64,000 nt of DNA from Duganella sacchari (GTDB lineage Bacteria > Pseudomonadota > Gammaproteobacteria > Burkholderiales > Burkholderiaceae_D): assembly GCF_900143065.1 (NCBI RefSeq), contig NZ_FRCX01000018.1:1-64000 (forward strand), written 5' to 3'. The notes under the pieces are model-generated. The model did no database searches. It saw nothing but the letters and a program-made list of their open reading frames with translations, and was not told the DNA's origin. The translations under genes and the position numbers were made by a program. Of the stretch, positions 1 through 8,665 are shown in pieces. Position 1 is the stretch's first letter; every line of letters starts with the position of its first letter.

Positions 1-20
1 AACTGTTTGACTGCATTCAT
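1..20 (-). CDS. flp: Flp-type prepilin, only the first six codons inside the window
   Basis: An ATG at 20 reading left gives MNAVKQ, identical to the start of the complete prepilin at 464-631, and the 5' flank matches too (leader inverted repeat, -10 box, paired dyads). The gene continues beyond the window start, so only its N-terminus is seen. By analogy it is a structural subunit of a Tad/Flp pilus and the first gene of a third pilin module. Confidence 0.8.
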
Positions 21-61
21 GATGAACTCCGTAAGTTAGTTGAGAGAGTGGATGACTTCAA

Positions 62-84
62 CTAAAACGGGGTTCAGGTTTTAG
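62..84 (-). other. Inverted repeat in the 5' leader of the partial Flp module
   Basis: CTAAAAC (62-68) and GTTTTAG (78-84) form a perfect 7-bp stem with a 9-nt loop, about 40 nt upstream of the pilin start. The same element lies before the 464-631 pilin (673-695) and is degraded before the 2337-2504 pilin. It is probably an mRNA leader hairpin affecting stability or translation; that role is inferred. Confidence 0.5.
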
Positions 85-118
85 GTACTGCGTTGTTTCT
101 GTACTGCCGATGAAAGAC

Positions 119-181
119 ATTCTACGCGTGCCGTCGCCAGCAAACATCCGACAAACGTCACTTTGTTCGATGACATTTGTC
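119..181 (-). promoter_or_regulatory. Flp module promoter, copy A: -10 box plus two GAC-N4-GTC dyads
   Basis: On the minus strand a TAGAAT -10 box (119-124) is preceded, after exactly 25 bp, by GACAAACGTC (150-159) and, 22 bp further, by GACATTTGTC (172-181). There is no good -35 hexamer at the expected place. Box sequences and spacing are identical in copies B and C. The dyads would be centred near -42 and -64, a class II activator geometry. The likely activator is the NarL-type regulator encoded at 2743-3402 (inference). Confidence 0.6.
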
Positions 182-194
182 ACGCCTGACATGC

Positions 195-220
195 AAAAAA
201 AATCCGGGCCGAAGCCCGGA
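195..220 (-). terminator. Intrinsic terminator of Flp module B
   Basis: Minus strand: stem TCCGGGC / GCCCGGA with a 4-nt loop followed by eight T residues. It lies about 36 nt after the stop of the 257-424 pilin and upstream of the copy A dyads, so it insulates the two pilin modules. Confidence 0.85.
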
Positions 221-256
221 CAAATACTAAGGAGCTTACTACGAGGAGACTGTGAA

Positions 257-424
257 TCAGGAGGACTTGATGAGGCCCGAAATGTAGGTCAGCGAAGCGG
301 TCAGCTTTGGTCCCAGGATCGCCAGGCCAGCGGTAATCGCAGCGGCGATGGCGGCGGCCATCAGGGCGTATTCGATGGCGGTGATGCCGTCTTCGTCGCG
401 GATGAAATGTTTGATTGCGTTCAT
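257..424 (-). CDS. flp: Flp-type prepilin, second gene of module B
   Basis: A 55-residue class IVb prepilin, missed by a 60-residue ORF cutoff. The short basic/acidic leader MNAIKHFIRDEDG ends in Gly, followed by ITAIEYALMAAAIAAA. This is the G-x4-EY processing motif of Flp/Tad pilins, cut by a TadV-type prepilin peptidase and followed by the hydrophobic assembly helix. The tail ends LIKSS, as in all copies. A GGAGA ribosome site precedes ATG 424. It lies 39 nt downstream of the 464-631 pilin, so the two are probably co-transcribed and end at the terminator at 195-220. It is almost identical to the pilin at 2134-2301, the same position in module C. Confidence 0.92.
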   Translation of the reverse strand: MNAIKHFIRDEDGITAIEYALMAAAIAAAITAGLAILGPKLTASLTYISGLIKSS

Positions 425-463
425 GATGCGTCTCCTTGAGAGATAGTCAATGTTGTGCGGGGA

Positions 464-631
464 TTACGACGATTTGATCAGACCGGAGATGTAGGTCAGC
501 GAGGCGGTGATCTTTGGTCCCAGGATCGCCAGGCCGGCGGTGATCGCGGCGGCGATGGCGGCTGCCATCAGGGCGTACTCGATAGCGGTGATGCCAGCTT
601 CGTCGTTGATGAACTGTTTGACTGCATTCAT
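464..631 (-). CDS. flp: Flp-type prepilin, first gene of module B
   Basis: A 55-residue prepilin beginning MNAVKQFINDEAG, with the processing site after Gly13 and ITAIEY following. It has the same hydrophobic helix and LIKSS end as its paralogues, and ILGPKITASL rather than ILGPKLTASL. It shares its first six residues with the truncated pilin at 1-20 and is the promoter-proximal gene of module B (promoter 744-806). Expected role: pilus subunit of a Tad adhesion pilus, assembled from the inner membrane after leader cleavage. That function is known for the family; which paralogue dominates the filament cannot be told from sequence. Confidence 0.92.
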   Translation of the reverse strand: MNAVKQFINDEAGITAIEYALMAAAIAAAITAGLAILGPKITASLTYISGLIKSS

Positions 632-672
632 GATGAACTCCGTAAATTAGTTGAGAGAGAGGGTGGCTTCAA

Positions 673-695
673 CTAAAACGGGGTTCAGGTTTTAG
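673..695 (-). other. Inverted repeat in the 5' leader of module B
   Basis: CTAAAAC (673-679) and GTTTTAG (689-695), with the same 9-nt loop as the copy at 62-84, lie about 42 nt upstream of ATG 631. The repeat is conserved along with the promoter, suggesting a leader RNA hairpin. Confidence 0.5.
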
Positions 696-743
696 GTACT
701 GCGTGTACGACTCGGTGCTACTTGTGTGCTGCCGATGAAAGAC

Positions 744-806
744 ATTCTACGCACCCCAACGCCAAGAGACATCGGACAAACGTCACGATTTGCAGTGACA
801 TTTGTC
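744..806 (-). promoter_or_regulatory. Flp module promoter, copy B
   Basis: TAGAAT -10 box at 744-749, 25-bp gap, GACAAACGTC at 775-784, GACATTTGTC at 797-806 (22-bp repeat distance). The inferred start site near 737 gives a leader of about 105 nt. The distal dyad overlaps the stop codon (805-807) of the upstream hydrolase gene, so transcription of that gene runs into this operator. Confidence 0.6.
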
Positions 807-1977
807 ACCCTGCATTTACGTGCAGCGTAGTCTGTGTCTTGCACCTCATCCGGTTAGCCAGTGCCCCTGGAACGGCTTCGCCAATGGTCCAGAAACCATT
901 GTTGTAGTTCCAGAGGGGCGCCGGCCTTTCCGGTGTATTCCTGCGTATCAGGTTTTTAATGTCAACCAGTAGCGGCAAGGCTTCCGCAAAATAGGCATGG
1001 GCCGGGATATCGTCTGGAATAAACGACACGACGTTGTCGATCCCTTTAATCATGACCTGTGGCACATCGCCGCAACCCACGCGCGGATAGGCGTGCACCA
1101 GCCCTGAGGCGTGTACCGCATAGTCATAGGGCGACAAATACACTGTGGTCCGCTGCGCCACTTTGAGATAGTTGGGACCGAGTTGCGCGAACAGGTCACG
1201 GTCAACGTCTGCGGCGGCCAGAATAATCTGACCGAATTGCATGTGCTGTGCTGCCGAGGCATTTTCCAGGCTGGCCACGATGGTGCGCAGTAAGGCGCGG
1301 TTTCCCATGCTGTGAGCGATCACATGGACTTGGCGCGTACCTGCACCTTGTATCACGCTTTGCAGAAAAGTCCGAAGATAGATTTCGCTGGCGTCGACAG
1401 TGGCCTCATCGACGGTGTACTGATCAATTGAACTCCGCGCGGCCCACGAAAAAAATATCATATTGTTTTCCGGGACATCCAGGTCCGCGCCGATTTGCGC
1501 CGCGCGAATCGCCGCATCATTGAAAGAGTTATTAAAGCCATGGATAAAAACCACAACATAGTCAGATTGGGTCTGGCGGATGTTGCTCAGGCTGCGTTGC
1601 ATCAGCCCTACGAAGTCGTCCTGACTGCGTAAGGGGGTGATCTCTTGCACGGACAGATGGGTATCGCTGCGCCACGGCCAGATGGCTTTCTTTCCAAGCG
1701 AGCCCGTGACATGACCTTTGGGAATCTTGACCATCACTTTGCCATAGTGAACCTGTACATCGCGCTGATCCGAATAAGTACCGTCGCCTGAGGGCGCTCT
1801 GGTGGTGCCATACAACACCGGATATTGACGGTCTTCCTTGGTCTCTTCGGCGGATACGGTTGCCGGGGGCGTGAGGGAGGCTAATTCGGCGCTGGAGATT
1901 TCGCGTGTGCCGAGCGTGCTGCAGCCGGCAAGCACGGTCGTACTGACTGCCAAGATGAGACGCACCAGGTACCCCAT
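805..1977 (-). CDS. DUF900-type alpha/beta hydrolase, lipoprotein
   Basis: A 390-residue protein with a lipoprotein signal (TTVLAGC, Cys19), predicted to be anchored to an envelope membrane. The central region has the serine-hydrolase pattern: strand VVVFIHGFNNSF, then the nucleophile elbow HVIAHSMGN around residue 220, as in the DUF900 (COG4782) family. The substrate is unknown; esterase or lipase-like activity is likely. GGGAG six bases before ATG 1977 supports the start. It lies in the same orientation between two pilin modules, about 107 bp after the terminator of module C, and its stop codon falls inside the distal dyad of promoter B. I know of no established link between this family and Tad pili, so it may simply have been trapped between duplicated modules. 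Confidence 0.85.
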   Translation of the reverse strand: MGYLVRLILAVSTTVLAGCSTLGTREISSAELASLTPPATVSAEETKEDRQYPVLYGTTRAPSGDGTYSDQRDVQVHYGKVMVKIPKGHVTGSLGKKAIWPWRSDTHLSVQEITPLRSQDDFVGLMQRSLSNIRQTQSDYVVVFIHGFNNSFNDAAIRAAQIGADLDVPENNMIFFSWAARSSIDQYTVDEATVDASEIYLRTFLQSVIQGAGTRQVHVIAHSMGNRALLRTIVASLENASAAQHMQFGQIILAAADVDRDLFAQLGPNYLKVAQRTTVYLSPYDYAVHASGLVHAYPRVGCGDVPQVMIKGIDNVVSFIPDDIPAHAYFAEALPLLVDIKNLIRRNTPERPAPLWNYNNGFWTIGEAVPGALANRMRCKTQTTLHVNAG

Positions 1978-2083
1978 GATTATTCTCCCGATTTATTATG
2001 GATTTGTTTTTACTGGCGAGCCCCATCATAGTATGAATAATAAGATGGAAAACTCACCAATATTTTCAGGGAGAAGTAGCACC

Positions 2084-2110
2084 AAAAAAAATCCGGACCA
2101 GGTCCGGATT
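2084..2110 (-). terminator. Intrinsic terminator of Flp module C
   Basis: Minus strand: ATCCGGACC, one-nucleotide loop, GGTCCGGAT, then eight T residues. It lies 24 nt after the stop of the 2134-2301 pilin. The stem is nearly the same as the terminator of the response-regulator gene at 2696-2721. Confidence 0.85.
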
Positions 2111-2133
2111 CAAGCAGGGGGGCAGGGCGGTGA

Positions 2134-2301
2134 TTACGACGACTTGATCAGGCCCGAAATGTAGGTCAGCGAGGCGGTCAGCTTGGGACCCAGCACCGCT
2201 ACACCAGCGGTGACTGCGGCGGCGATGGCGGCTGCCATCAGGGCGTATTCGATGGCGGTGATGCCGTCTTCGTCGCGGATGAAGTGTTTGATTGCGTTCA
2301 T
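2134..2301 (-). CDS. flp: Flp-type prepilin, second gene of module C
   Basis: A 55-residue prepilin with the leader MNAIKHFIRDEDG, identical to the second gene of module B, followed by ITAIEYALMAAA. It differs in the middle (AAVTAGVAVLGPKLTA instead of AAITAGLAILGPKLTA). It has the G-x4-EY processing motif and the LIKSS tail, and a GGGAG ribosome site precedes ATG 2301. It is co-oriented 35 nt after the 2337-2504 pilin and followed by a terminator, so it forms a two-gene unit. Confidence 0.92.
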   Translation of the reverse strand: MNAIKHFIRDEDGITAIEYALMAAAIAAAVTAGVAVLGPKLTASLTYISGLIKSS

Positions 2302-2336
2302 GATGCGTCTCCCTCTGTGTGGTCAGTGTGTTTGAA

Positions 2337-2504
2337 TTACGACGATTTGATCAGGCCGGAAATATAGGTCAGCGAGGCGGTGATCTTCGGCCCCAGGATG
2401 GCCAGGCCGGCGGTGATCGCGGCGGCGATGGCGGCGGCCATCAGGGCATACTCAATCGCGGTGATGCCAGCGTCGTCGTGGATGAAATTTTTGACTGCGT
2501 TCAT
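2337..2504 (-). CDS. flp: Flp-type prepilin, first gene of module C
   Basis: A 55-residue prepilin beginning MNAVKNFIHDDAG, then ITAIEYALMAAA with the same assembly helix as its paralogues and ILGPKITASL near the end. It is the promoter-proximal gene of module C (promoter 2610-2672, leader about 100 nt). The first-gene type (MNAVK...KITASL) and second-gene type (MNAIKHF...KLTASL) are preserved across modules B and C, so a two-gene unit, not single genes, was duplicated. Confidence 0.92.
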   Translation of the reverse strand: MNAVKNFIHDDAGITAIEYALMAAAIAAAITAGLAILGPKITASLTYISGLIKSS

Positions 2505-2609
2505 GATGGACCTCGTTTAAGTAATTGGTGTGAGAAGACTGGGTGGCAGCGGCTTTATCTAAAACGGGGTCCGGGTTTCATTGCTACGTTTGTGCTGCCG
2601 ATGTAAGAC

Positions 2610-2672
2610 ATTCTACGCACCACACTGTCACGGCACAGCGGACAAACGTCCTGATCTGCGGTGACATTTGTC
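2610..2672 (-). promoter_or_regulatory. Flp module promoter, copy C
   Basis: TAGAAT -10 box at 2610-2615, 25-bp gap, GACAAACGTC at 2641-2650, GACATTTGTC at 2663-2672, again 22 bp apart. Sequence between the boxes has diverged from copies A and B while boxes and distances have not. The site lies just downstream of the response-regulator gene, which reads in the same direction and is separated from it by a terminator. Confidence 0.6.
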
Positions 2673-2695
2673 ACCAATTCTCACACTCTGCAGGC

Positions 2696-2721
2696 AAAAA
2701 AAATCCGGACACGGTCCGGAT
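2696..2721 (-). terminator. Intrinsic terminator of the two-component operon
   Basis: Minus strand: ATCCGGACC-GT-GTCCGGAT followed by eight T residues, about 20 nt after the response-regulator stop and before the copy C dyads. Confidence 0.85.
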
Positions 2722-2742
2722 GGCATGGGAGCCTGGCGACGG

Positions 2743-3402
2743 TTAAGCCGTCATGCCGTGCTTGGTGGCATACACATACAGCTCCAGCCGGTTGGCCACG
2801 CCGAGCTTCTGGTAAATCGTGGTCAGGTTGTTGCGCAGCGTGGGTTCGGCAATGAACAGCTTGGAGGCCAGCTCCTTGTTGGGCGCGCCATTGCCTTCCA
2901 CCACCACGGCGACGATCTTGCGTTCCTTGGGCGTCAGCGAGGCGATGCGCGCCGCTTCCGGATCCGCCTTGGGCGGCGCCGACAGCTGGCCCAGCAGCGC
3001 GTTCATGAGTACCGGATCGAGGCAAGTCTCGCCGCGCGACACGGCGCGGATACTATTCAGCACCACATCGGCCGGCGCTTCCTTGCTGACCACGCCGCGC
3101 GCGCCCAGCTTGACCGCCTGCGTCAGCAAGCCCTGGTCGCGGTTGCCGCTGAGGATCATGACCTTGGCGCCGCTCGCTTGCAGCAACTGCGGCAGAATCT
3201 CGATCGAGCTGCGGCCCTCCAGGTCGAGGTCGAGCACGATCACATCGGGCTTCAAGGCGCCGCCCTCCTGCAGCGCGGTGTCGTTGTTGTGGGCAGTGCC
3301 GACCAGTTGCAGATCGTCGCCGCCGCCCTCGATGAGCTTTTCCAGGCCCCACAGCATGGTCTTGTGGTCGTCTACCAGCATGATGCGGATAGGAGTCGTC
3401 AT
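2743..3402 (-). CDS. NarL/FixJ-family response regulator
   Basis: A 219-residue protein. The receiver domain occupies roughly residues 5-120, with the acidic pair D11/D12, phosphoacceptor D58 (VIVLDLDLEG) and a conserved Lys in GVVSKEAP. A LuxR-type HTH spans about 150-215 (LTPKERKIV through ANRLELYVYA). It starts 16 nt after the stop of the sensor kinase with GAGG before the ATG, so the two form one operon. The operon sits between Flp prepilin modules and the TadE/TadG genes, so the likely job is control of pilus expression. The paired GAC-N4-GTC dyads before each pilin module are candidate binding sites; that link is inferred from position. Confidence 0.9.
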   Translation of the reverse strand: MTTPIRIMLVDDHKTMLWGLEKLIEGGGDDLQLVGTAHNNDTALQEGGALKPDVIVLDLDLEGRSSIEILPQLLQASGAKVMILSGNRDQGLLTQAVKLGARGVVSKEAPADVVLNSIRAVSRGETCLDPVLMNALLGQLSAPPKADPEAARIASLTPKERKIVAVVVEGNGAPNKELASKLFIAEPTLRNNLTTIYQKLGVANRLELYVYATKHGMTA

Positions 3403-3418
3403 AGTGTGCCTCGGTCAG

Positions 3419-5104
3419 TTATACCGGGATGGCGATGCTGACGGCAGTGTAGCCAGAAGCCGAACAGTCAATCGCAATGGTCCCGCCCAGCGCAGCAGTG
3501 CGCTCGGCCAGCGATCCAGGCAGGAATGGGGCCGATGGACCTTCAGGGCTTTCGTTTTCGATGCGTATCCGCAGCTGGCCGTCAGCGTTGCTCAGGCTGA
3601 TCAGCCCCGTGCGGGCACGGGTATGTTTACGTATATTGTGCATGCCTTCATTCACGATCTGGAACACTTCCGCCGCCAGCCGGTCGCTGATGGTCAGGCC
3701 ATCCTCGGCCTGTATCGTAATCTGGATATCGTAGAACTCTTGCACCTGCTGCGCCTGCCGGCGCAAGGCCACCAGCAGTTCCGCATCGGTGGTGGCCGCG
3801 CCTTGCCGCACATTGCGCGCAAACTGCCGCATATCACCGATGACCTGGGTGGTCATGTCGAGCAGTTTATCAAGTTCCGCAGACACCGGGTGGTCCGCCT
3901 GCAAAGATTGCCGCACCGCGCTGATGCCATGCCGCAGTCCGATATACGGCTGGATGGTGGTGTCGTGCAGGTCGCGCGCGATCTTCTGCCGCTCGCGGAA
4001 GGCGGCGTCCGAGGCCAGCCGGTCGAGCAGCACGATGTTCTCGATGACGGGAAACACCTGCGCGGCCAACTGTTGCAAAAATACCGCATCGGCGCGGCTG
4101 AAGCGGTGCTGGTCCGACACCACGTAAATCCGTCCTTCCCCCTTGCGCAAGGGCAGCGGCGCGCTGACGAAGGAACTGGCATCGAGCAAGTCGATGAGCT
4201 GTTCCACCTGCTCCGGCGGCAACGGCTGCCAGCGCGTGGCGTCCGGCGCGCGCTGGCGCGACTCCAGCGAGCCAGGCAAGCGCGGATGCAGCGCGGCCGC
4301 ATACTGCACCAGCGCCTGCGGCGCAAACACCAGCAGCGGCGCGGCCGCGCCTTCCGGCAGGCGCGCCAGCGAGGTGCGGCCGTCCGGCGCACCGGACGAA
4401 TGCAGCTGCCACAGCTCATCCGGCCCGTCGCGCATGAGCAGCACGCAATTGCTGGCGTGGTAGAAGTCGCGCGTCTGGATCAGCATGGTGGCAATGGTCT
4501 GGTCGACGCCGAAGCGCGGATTCGACAGCCGGCTCACATCGCGCAGCAGGCGCAGCCGGCGCCGCTGGGCCACGCCCGTGCCGCCCCAGTAGGCGATCAT
4601 GTAGCCGAGCGCCAGCACAAACGCGGTGCGCAGCAGCAGGTGGCCTTCGTTGATATTGCTGTCGGACAGCCAGGTGGCAAACGCCAGGGCCAGCGTGGCG
4701 CCCAGCGTGATGCGCGCGCCTTCGTCAAAGCCCCACTGGAACGAGGCGGTCAGGATTACAAAAAAGAAGAACGGAAAGAAGAAGCTGTTGCCGCCGCCGG
4801 TGCAGTACACCATGAGCGCATACCAGCCGAGGTCGATCCAGTACACCGCCTTGCCATGCCAGAACGGATTGCGGTGGCGCCGCGCGGCCAGCAGCAGCGT
4901 CAGGCTGTGCAGCAGATAGGCGCCAAAGATCAGGGAGCTCAGCAAGGTACGCTCGCCGTAGCGGTTGCCCAGCTCGCCCGGCGCCACAAACAGCGTCAGG
5001 ATCGCCGTCAACGCCAGCACCAGCCGCATGACAAACACCATGGACGCGCCGACGGCGTCGCCGCCCGTGCGTGTAGCGTTGGCCCTGCTGCTGTCTGCTA
5101 TCAC
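3419..5104 (-). CDS. Membrane sensor histidine kinase, NarL-partner type
   Basis: About 561 residues. The N-terminal half has several hydrophobic segments (for example RLVLALTAILTLFV and a Phe-rich SFFFPFFFFVILTA) compatible with about six membrane helices. A GAF-like region follows, then a HisKA_3 dimerisation helix with the phosphoacceptor in ARDLHDTTIQPYIGL, and a short ATPase domain (EGMHNIRKHT). I chose GTG 5104 because GGAG lies eight bases upstream. A longer frame to GTG 5167 has no ribosome site, and ATGs further in would cut close to the first helix. Divergent from the TadE gene and co-transcribed with the response regulator. The signal sensed is unknown. Confidence 0.87.
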   Translation of the reverse strand: MIADSSRANATRTGGDAVGASMVFVMRLVLALTAILTLFVAPGELGNRYGERTLLSSLIFGAYLLHSLTLLLAARRHRNPFWHGKAVYWIDLGWYALMVYCTGGGNSFFFPFFFFVILTASFQWGFDEGARITLGATLALAFATWLSDSNINEGHLLLRTAFVLALGYMIAYWGGTGVAQRRRLRLLRDVSRLSNPRFGVDQTIATMLIQTRDFYHASNCVLLMRDGPDELWQLHSSGAPDGRTSLARLPEGAAAPLLVFAPQALVQYAAALHPRLPGSLESRQRAPDATRWQPLPPEQVEQLIDLLDASSFVSAPLPLRKGEGRIYVVSDQHRFSRADAVFLQQLAAQVFPVIENIVLLDRLASDAAFRERQKIARDLHDTTIQPYIGLRHGISAVRQSLQADHPVSAELDKLLDMTTQVIGDMRQFARNVRQGAATTDAELLVALRRQAQQVQEFYDIQITIQAEDGLTISDRLAAEVFQIVNEGMHNIRKHTRARTGLISLSNADGQLRIRIENESPEGPSAPFLPGSLAERTAALGGTIAIDCSASGYTAVSIAIPV

Positions 5105-5456
5105 TGCGGTGTCTCCTGCATACAAGCAAACTAAACGAAGTAGCGATTCGATAGTTGTTGCGAACACAATCGAGTCTACGCAGTCGTCGCTGCAATGTCT
5201 AGCCGGAGCATGGTACGCTGCACCTAGGATTCACGCCCGTCCCTGGCGGGCGCCATGTTTTTGATGCCTTTAAAGAACATTAAATAACTAGGCGAAAGAA
5301 AATGAATCGCGTTAGAATCACTTACCGTCACCTCATTCCTGTGGCGCTGCCGCCGGCCCATTGCGCGCCGGACAGCCCGACGACAGTGCCGCGCCATCTG
5401 CGCTTCCGCCTGTGTTTCCCTGTTTTGCAACCCGACCGTCTCACGGACGCAACATC
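5105..5456. other. Intergenic region between the sensor kinase and TadE genes
   Basis: Divergent control region of about 350 bp with AT-rich patches (5265-5300). A TAGAAT hexamer at 5313-5318 could be a -10 box for the TadE operon but lacks a recognisable -35. I found no GAC-N4-GTC pair like those before the pilin genes, and no gene. Confidence 0.4.
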
Positions 5457-8011: not shown

Positions 8012-8665
8012 TTACTTGCGCACGTAGGAGGTCAGCTCCCAGCTGTCGCGGTTGTAGATGCGGCCTTGCCAGTCGGTGTCGCGGTAATCGAGCTTGACGA
8101 AGTTGTTCAGCTCCGGCACGAACCACACGGTTTCCGTGAGCTGGCCGCTGCCGTTCTTGGTGAACGTGTCCTGGGCGCTGTAGGTGGCTTCCACCACGAT
8201 TTTCAGCGCATCAAATTCGCCGGCCGGCACTTTGACCTTTTCCCAGTCCAGCACCTTGCCCTTGATCTGGTAGCGCCAGTTCTTGCCCTGCTTGGGGTTG
8301 TTGCCGGTGACATCGCTGTTCCATTCCTTGCCCGGCGCCAGCGGGAAAGCGTAGCGCGCAAACGACGGCGCAAAGTGCATGGCGCCGCGGTCGACCGGAT
8401 TCATTTCCGGACTGAACAGCTGGGTGCTGATCAGGGCGCCGCTGGCAGCGCGCTTGACGTCAACGTGGATGCCATTCTCATCCACGGCCGTCACTTCCAT
8501 CCGATTGGTGTTGCCTTTCACACCCTTCCAGACATCGGTGTACTGGTAGGTCCACGAATCACCGACGGCAGGGGCCGGGGACGATACCGATTCGCGGCTG
8601 CCCGCCTGCGCCAGGGCGCACGGCAGGATGAAACAGAGCACTGCAAACGAACGTTTGATGGTCAT
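8012..8665 (-). CDS. Exported protein of unknown function
   Basis: 217 residues with a clear Sec signal peptide (MTIKRSFAVLCFILPCALAQAGS). The mature part begins around PAVGDSWTYQYTD and is rich in beta-type sequence with several Trp residues (KEWNSDV, KNWRYQI, LDWEKVKVPAGEFDALKIVVEATY). I do not recognise a named family; the pattern resembles periplasmic beta-sandwich proteins of the DUF3108-like kind. AAGGAG precedes ATG 8665. It is monocistronic, convergent with tadG across the palindrome. Confidence 0.75.
   Translation of the reverse strand: MTIKRSFAVLCFILPCALAQAGSRESVSSPAPAVGDSWTYQYTDVWKGVKGNTNRMEVTAVDENGIHVDVKRAASGALISTQLFSPEMNPVDRGAMHFAPSFARYAFPLAPGKEWNSDVTGNNPKQGKNWRYQIKGKVLDWEKVKVPAGEFDALKIVVEATYSAQDTFTKNGSGQLTETVWFVPELNNFVKLDYRDTDWQGRIYNRDSWELTSYVRK

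Follow-up and report, generated by a model that had tools for sequence, protein, structure and literature searches.

The window analysed here comprises 64,000 nucleotides from Duganella sacchari and forms the start of a contig (C32) in a genome of 6.68 Mb; its closest named relatives, as judged by the response regulator that it encodes, are Duganella. Near its beginning, on the minus strand, lie three units of Flp pilin genes, here called A, B and C, each preceded by two GAC-N4-GTC dyads, together with the genes of a two-component system. Unit B contains two flp genes (464-631 and 257-424), both with matches to the family Flp_Fap, and unit C another two (2337-2504 and 2134-2301), recognised as open reading frames with the Flp motif, the second of which also matches Flp_Fap; the flp pair of unit A lies across the contig break. 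The response regulator (2743-3402) and a histidine kinase (3419-5167), also on the minus strand, are encoded between the flp units and tadE, in a neighbourhood that is the same in the related loci L063-L082.

The dyad pair GACAAACGTC-N12-GACATTTGTC occurs in three exact copies, at positions 150-181, 775-806 and 2641-2672, with ATTCTA, the minus-strand TAGAAT, 25 nt from the nearer dyad (119-124, 744-749 and 2610-2615). Read on the minus strand, the order is GACAAATGTC-N12-GACGTTTGTC-N25-TAGAAT, pointing to the flp genes, with the distal dyads at 172-181, 797-806 and 2663-2672 and the proximal dyads at 150-159, 775-784 and 2641-2650 in units A, B and C, respectively. A sequence-only reading of this DNA had claimed a dyad spacing of 22 bp and a distance of 25 bp to TAGAAT; both are exact at all three sites, and the expectation for the pair in the window was 0.00 in 100 shuffles. 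The scan of the complete genome that it had proposed gave a larger set than first noted: at up to 3 mismatches the pair is present at five places, all on the minus strand, each upstream of Flp pilin genes and followed after 25 nt by a -10-like hexamer, whereas a control with the reversed pattern gave none.

The two additional copies are located at the end of contig C31 (170736-170767 and 170993-171024). This contig and that of the window very probably adjoin, since the final 95 bases of C31 are identical to positions 1-95 of the window and since the regulator, the flp units and tadV lie in a single stretch in nine relatives (L063-L071). The five sites correspond to five units, three of them with flp pairs, one with a single flp gene upstream of tadV and the tad operon, and one with a second pilin type (GATLLEYAL), in which CACAAT replaces TAGAAT at unchanged spacing. 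The 12-mer TGACANNTGTCA was found at the same five places and nowhere else in the genome. A Flp family search of the genome yielded nine matches; eight of these open reading frames fall within the five units, and the ninth is on contig C24, from which the 12-mer is absent. Nor was a dyad-pair site found before the plus-strand genes tadE-tadF-tadG.

To describe the conservation of these promoters, we aligned 51 distinct contexts of the pair, left from 53 after removal of a reverse reading and of a context whose -10 hexamer was TATCAT. The resulting footprint consists of TGACAAATGTCAC, a spacer in which A15 and A17 are conserved, RTGACGTTTGTC, G.TG, 16 nearly free columns and TAGAATG. The 20 dyad columns carry 1.50-1.96 bits and columns 37-52 only 0.00-0.63, so that the claimed drift between the boxes applies to the latter, but not to spacer columns 10, 11, 15, 17 and 21 (1.26-1.96 bits) or to the G.TG directly after the near dyad (1.56-1.96 bits). 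The spacer between the boxes measures 12 in 44 of the 45 contexts with exact boxes and 13 in one. As the units in the window are plainly paralogous, their similarity might be the mere trace of a recent duplication of the pilin module. This is extremely improbable given that the dyads and their spacing are fixed while columns 37-52 are free, across 51 contexts and many species, that the second pilin type retains the pair despite a diverged gene and -10 hexamer, and that other genera retain the distal palindrome with symmetric changes; chance and plain duplication were discarded on the genome counts and the footprint. A hairpin or terminator reading, suggested by the mutual inversion of the dyads and by the listing of positions 182-149 as terminator-like, was also rejected, because the -10 hexamer comes only after the pair and because other genera do not preserve the distance between the dyads. 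An Rfam search of positions 1-3000 with E up to 1 gave six matches, none above the gathering score.

A promoter scan found neither a consensus sigma-70 promoter nor a consensus -35 hexamer at the dyad sites, in line with the earlier statement that no -35 fits. Yet a degenerate -35 may exist, because an invariant TG of the footprint sits where this hexamer would be with a 17-bp spacer to the -10, which puts it at about 767-772 in unit B. Taking the -10 hexamer as -12 to -7, the dyad centres would lie at -64.5 and -42.5 from the putative start. With the start so placed, the geometry would fit class II activation, in which an activator binds near -41.5 at a promoter with a poor -35 and a good -10, and the dyad centres 22 bp apart, with 25 nt to the -10, fit the tandem layout of DevR-type promoters. 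The latter have been described as carrying boxes packed closely together, with the proximal box overlapping the -35 and a weaker second site that is filled cooperatively (PMC3029386).

The protein encoded at 2743-3402 combines a receiver domain (Response_reg, E 1.3e-15) with a C-terminal helix-turn-helix of the NarL/FixJ family (GerE, E 1.4e-11), and VraR, NarL and DevR are among its best structural-database matches. HisKA_3 is the sole Pfam match of the kinase. The palindromic site is of the form predicted for a dimer that binds an inverted repeat, and we take its GAC-N4-GTC core to match the DevR consensus. The helix AEPTLRNN of the regulator aligns with AEKTVKNY of DevR, in which Lys179, Lys182 and Asn183 are reported to contact bases (PMC4082495). 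The aligned residues here are P, R and N; the Asn is kept, Lys182 is replaced by Arg, and by this measure the protein falls outside the DevR/DosR orthologues.

The distribution of the operator was examined in 60 genomes of the genus, the window's own included, in which regulator homologues were sought at E<=1e-35 with at most 50 candidates scored per genome. The pair was found at up to 3 mismatches in 15 of the 60 genomes and the reversed control in 8, and single 3-mismatch matches therefore mean nothing. At least three pairs at 0-2 mismatches were present in ten genomes, which are exactly the ten with a regulator of 87-100% identity. Where the regulator was 76-82% identical (six genomes), a degenerate pair was seen in two (G030 and G039) and, by this pattern, none in the other four. 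The 22 genomes with a homologue of 50-67% identity had no strict pair, stray 3-mismatch matches being confined to G047 and G053, and the 22 in which no homologue was found had no real pair, with one stray 3-mismatch match in G003. All 60 genomes contain flp genes, and the operator is therefore not tied to flp as such; on the sequences compared, it goes with this cluster. The sequence-only reading had expected the motif before the flp genes of relatives that keep the two-component pair. Taken as strict pairs, this fails in four of the six genomes with a 76-82% identical regulator and in all 22 with one of 50-67%; what persists in those six is the place of the proximal element, with altered letters, while the distal palindrome is mostly farther upstream.

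Palindromes with an AC-N4-GT core are also located between the regulator gene and flp in most of the Massilia, Pseudoduganella, Rugamonas and Janthinobacterium loci in which flp comes after the regulator. Many of the loci gathered by regulator similarity belong to genomes of the 60-genome sample, so that the two sets are not independent. They read AGGACATATGTCCT or GGTACAAATGTACT in Massilia, GTGACACTTGTCAC in two other Massilia, and ATGACAATTGTCAC or AGTACAAATGTACT in Janthinobacterium; none was found in L138, and L145 contains a spurious site only. For a test of symmetry, 45 loci were examined and four were set aside, L134, L136 and L138 having no site and L125 no proximal element; the remaining 41 include four Duganella loci and the spurious site of L145. 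Among their 26 distinct 14-mers, 57 of 78 outer flanking pairs were complementary, compared with a shuffle mean of 39.3, and a value as high was reached in 1 of 20,000 shuffles, with related sequences treated as independent. Selection of the site by best-matching flanks or as the most upstream candidate gave the identical site in all 41 loci; the most-upstream pick left out 12 of 66 loci, two more were siteless, and the Duganella picks in L106, L112 and L113 were not the distal dyad.

The proximal element of these other genera is asymmetric; its end is at or close to GATG, and a -10-like hexamer follows after about 20 nt. The distance from the palindrome to the GATG end, measurable in 32 of the 41 loci, was 55-56 nt in 23 and about 65-66 nt in 9 (five of these measured directly, four printed as 63 or 68 and corrected by hand by 3 nt), compared with 32 in the window's clade; the two classes are one helical turn apart. 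In Duganella with a 76-82% identical regulator, three elements follow one another: a distal palindrome, a middle site that is weak and, 25 nt from the -10, a proximal site like GTGACATCYGTC, which is altered in D. aceris (L116). The 22-bp spacing is seen in one promoter each of G030 and G039. Two clean dyads 22 bp apart are thus the form that a wider promoter plan takes in one Duganella clade. The residue aligned with Lys179 of DevR was also compared with the half-site: P occurs with TGAC in 26 of 30 cases and H with TGAC in 28 of 34 (A, 2 of 2), while R occurs with GGAC or GTAC in 25 of 26 and Q with GTAC in 10 of 12.

Operators are also found away from the regulator. Eleven pairs at nine such loci (L083-L091) lie 157-176 nt before a flp start, and in these 19-kb stretches no homologues of the regulator, TadV, CpaB, TadE or an ATPase-like protein of the cluster were found at 1e-10. 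Examples of these orphan cassettes lie at 8504 and 9853 in L088, 9108 in L089, 9200 in L090 and 9542 in L091. Two orphan pairs in G007 are on the same contig as the regulator, about 2.5 Mb from it; the other orphans are on different contigs. In the loci examined, the Flp motif lies within 330 nt of 54 of the 57 sites with up to 3 mismatches, and the three others are the site at position 150 of the window, the gene of which is past the contig break, a stray match in G047 and, in G035, a symmetric site read in reverse. In several Duganella, pilin genes appear to have been dispersed with their own promoter. A broader idea, possible but offered tentatively, is that of a pilin-only regulon, in which a dedicated two-component system would drive many pilin cassettes. 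Their promoter, a movable unit made up of the distal palindrome, the proximal site, the -10 and the leader, would have spread with flp genes to places far from the tad cluster in some Duganella, the palindrome and the recognition helix having changed together across the Oxalobacteraceae.

We consider it probable that the two-component system encoded next to the flp units controls them with the paired dyads as its operator, its regulator working as a class II activator of the DevR kind at two sites, of which the distal one would be strong and the proximal one weaker. The HisKA_3 kinase would phosphorylate the NarL/DevR-type regulator, one dimer of which would then occupy the near-perfect distal palindrome GTGACAAATGTCAC, centred at about -64.5, and assist the binding of another dimer to the proximal RTGACGTTTGTC, which is less symmetric, is centred at about -42.5 and lies two helical turns away. 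The proximal dimer would abut the degenerate -35 and recruit sigma-70 RNA polymerase to TAGAAT. With an operator copy of their own, all five pilin units would be switched together; some relatives also have a copy before flp genes that lie at a great distance from the cluster. The sites, their geometry, conservation and genome-wide specificity, their placement before flp and their co-occurrence with the regulator's cluster are established; binding by this regulator, activation, the transcription start, cooperativity and a signal are what we infer from them. A dimeric operator near -42 and -64, with the NarL-type neighbour as the candidate binder, had been predicted from the sequence at the outset, and it is favoured by the co-occurrence in 10 of 10 genomes, the lack of a real pair in the 22 genomes without the regulator, in spite of their flp genes, and the symmetric changes of the distal dyad outside Duganella.

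Several observations weigh against this interpretation. In lineages other than the core Duganella clade, the 22-bp pairing has disappeared and the proximal element no longer forms a clean dyad. When the contrast between residue and half-site was placed on a tree (51 rows), each residue with more than one row formed one tree group, leaving one or two independent contrasts, too few for a test; the joint change was therefore dropped as proof of binding and is a lead. The absence of the regulator from genomes is judged on at most 50 candidates in each. Finally, 21 of the 22 regulator-less genomes, with one homologue each of the cluster's ATPase, probably lack the whole cluster, so that the co-occurrence fits any cluster-borne regulator and does not single out this one from its neighbours.

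The dyads might thus be the operator of another regulator of the cluster, for example an ATPase-like protein of 468 aa, the gene of which is flanked by tadV and cpaB (8293-9699 of L006, minus strand), or of an unlinked cluster-associated factor, although we regard this as unlikely. With the operator linked to the regulator, any gene of the cluster would co-occur with it: the closest copies of the ATPase (90-93%) belong to the same nine relatives and share their genomes with the operators, and of the 22 regulator-less genomes 21 have a single homologue and one (G006) has two. By co-occurrence the ATPase was not separable from the regulator. However, ATPase homologues are present in 60 of 60 genomes, and one that is 43% identical (G000:C24:88904-90172) is encoded on C24 at a distance of about 0.8 kb from the ninth flp gene, a place that lacks the operator; it is therefore likely that an operator-free second tad-like locus is general. 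Pfam gives the ATPase only a sub-threshold match to AAA_16, and the GAC-N4-GTC form and tandem placing of the sites suit a regulator of the NarL/DevR type. That the protein has an N-terminal winged helix is a guess.

The regulator could also bind the dyads and repress flp, its dimer at -42.5 blocking polymerase beside the -35. The proximal dyad does adjoin the -35 position, and loss of the two-component system FixLJ by deletion of fixLJ raised flp expression in Burkholderia dolosa, directly or not (PMC5234846), so that negative action is possible. Repression is nevertheless improbable, more so than a different cluster regulator, as the poor basal promoter, with no consensus match at the sites, suits an activated one, and PprAB of Pseudomonas aeruginosa is reported to act positively on flp (PMC3510237).

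In several Janthinobacterium promoters, CTGATGTAGATCAA stands right after the proximal element, and CTGATGTAGATCAA- or TTGATGCAAATCAA-like palindromes are found in this place in L140-L143, L146-L148, L150, L151, L155, L156 and L115. These palindromes resemble FNR boxes. They also resemble the JAI-1 motif TTGA-N6/7-TCAA of Janthinobacterium, from which CTGATGTAGATCAA differs by one letter, and a Flp cluster of Janthinobacterium HH102, marked as bearing this motif, was reported to be lower in a JAI-1 synthase mutant (PMC5080296). Quorum sensing through JqsR at this motif might accordingly control the promoters instead of the local system, which is a very remote prospect, because the JAI-1 motif is a different palindrome from the GAC dyads and occurs just once each in positions 1-5300 of the window and 9700-11561 of L006. 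Both occurrences, of the form TTGA-N7-TCAA (436-450 in the window; from 11291 in L006), lie between the two flp genes of a unit and outside the operators; unit C has none. JAI-1 control could act in addition to the operator.

Among other features of the region, terminator-like hairpins follow units B (202-221) and C (2089-2111) on the minus strand, and a third lies between the regulator gene and the operator of unit C (2703-2721). Units B and C are separated by a gene for a DUF900 alpha/beta-hydrolase with a lipoprotein-like start (805-1977, minus strand). The flp leaders share a ACCTAAAACCTGAACCCCGTTTTAGTTGA-like sequence able to fold as a 7-bp hairpin (61-110 and 661-720 of the window, minus strand; L072-L077; L083-L091), for which the consensus alone gave a z of -2.6, equalled in 5 of 200 shuffles; the leader of unit C (2505-2600) is without the stem (z -0.62). 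Between the promoter and flp, where Duganella has the second pilin type, a short open reading frame with a GTG start and coding for a small membrane-type protein was noted by eye in many of the mostly Massilia loci L118-L131, L135 and L138.

Control of flp/tad genes by an adjacent two-component system is already known from P. aeruginosa (PMC3510237) and Pectobacterium (PMC3767616). The promoters described here resemble those of Mycobacterium tuberculosis DevR/DosR in their NarL-subfamily regulator, closely packed sites and proximal box by the -35 (PMC3029386), but differ in phylum, flanking letters and targets, which here are Flp pilins; a haem-type sensor is not apparent in the kinase, with HisKA_3 as its only Pfam match. 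PprAB is likewise encoded within a tad cluster, the flp-rcp-tad locus of P. aeruginosa, which it activates (PMC3510237), but the predicted PprB site is GGCTAATAC-like (PMC6821963), a sequence that differs from the dyads and led us to reject a PprB-like site, and PprB has non-pilus targets such as the CupE fimbriae. In Pectobacterium, the adjacent system ECA0785-ECA0786 is needed for full flp/tad expression, but its regulator has an OmpR (COG0745) domain, and the terms 'binding site', 'motif' and 'promoter' are absent from the main text of that paper (PMC3767616). The JAI-1 motif is comparable as a palindrome reported upstream of regulated genes, including a Flp cluster (PMC5080296), but has another sequence and does not occur in the operators of this genome. 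In the open-licence literature searched, the operator was not found described, and among the text matches listed for four 10-mers all were unrelated by title; for the control of Oxalobacteraceae Tad/Flp pili, that literature gave little beyond quorum sensing.

The operator is unusually clean and widely kept, and it provides a concrete control element, with almost no genomic background, for the Tad/Flp pilin genes of the Oxalobacteraceae. Since the 12-mer TGACANNTGTCA is confined to pilin promoters in this genome, the regulon is predictable from sequence, and a simple flp reporter could serve in the search for the signal of the kinase. For the question of how DNA is read by NarL-type regulators, the palindromes and recognition helices of the different genera form a natural test set. 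Should the neighbouring two-component system indeed act through these dyads, a single signal could turn on every copy of the pilus subunit at once.

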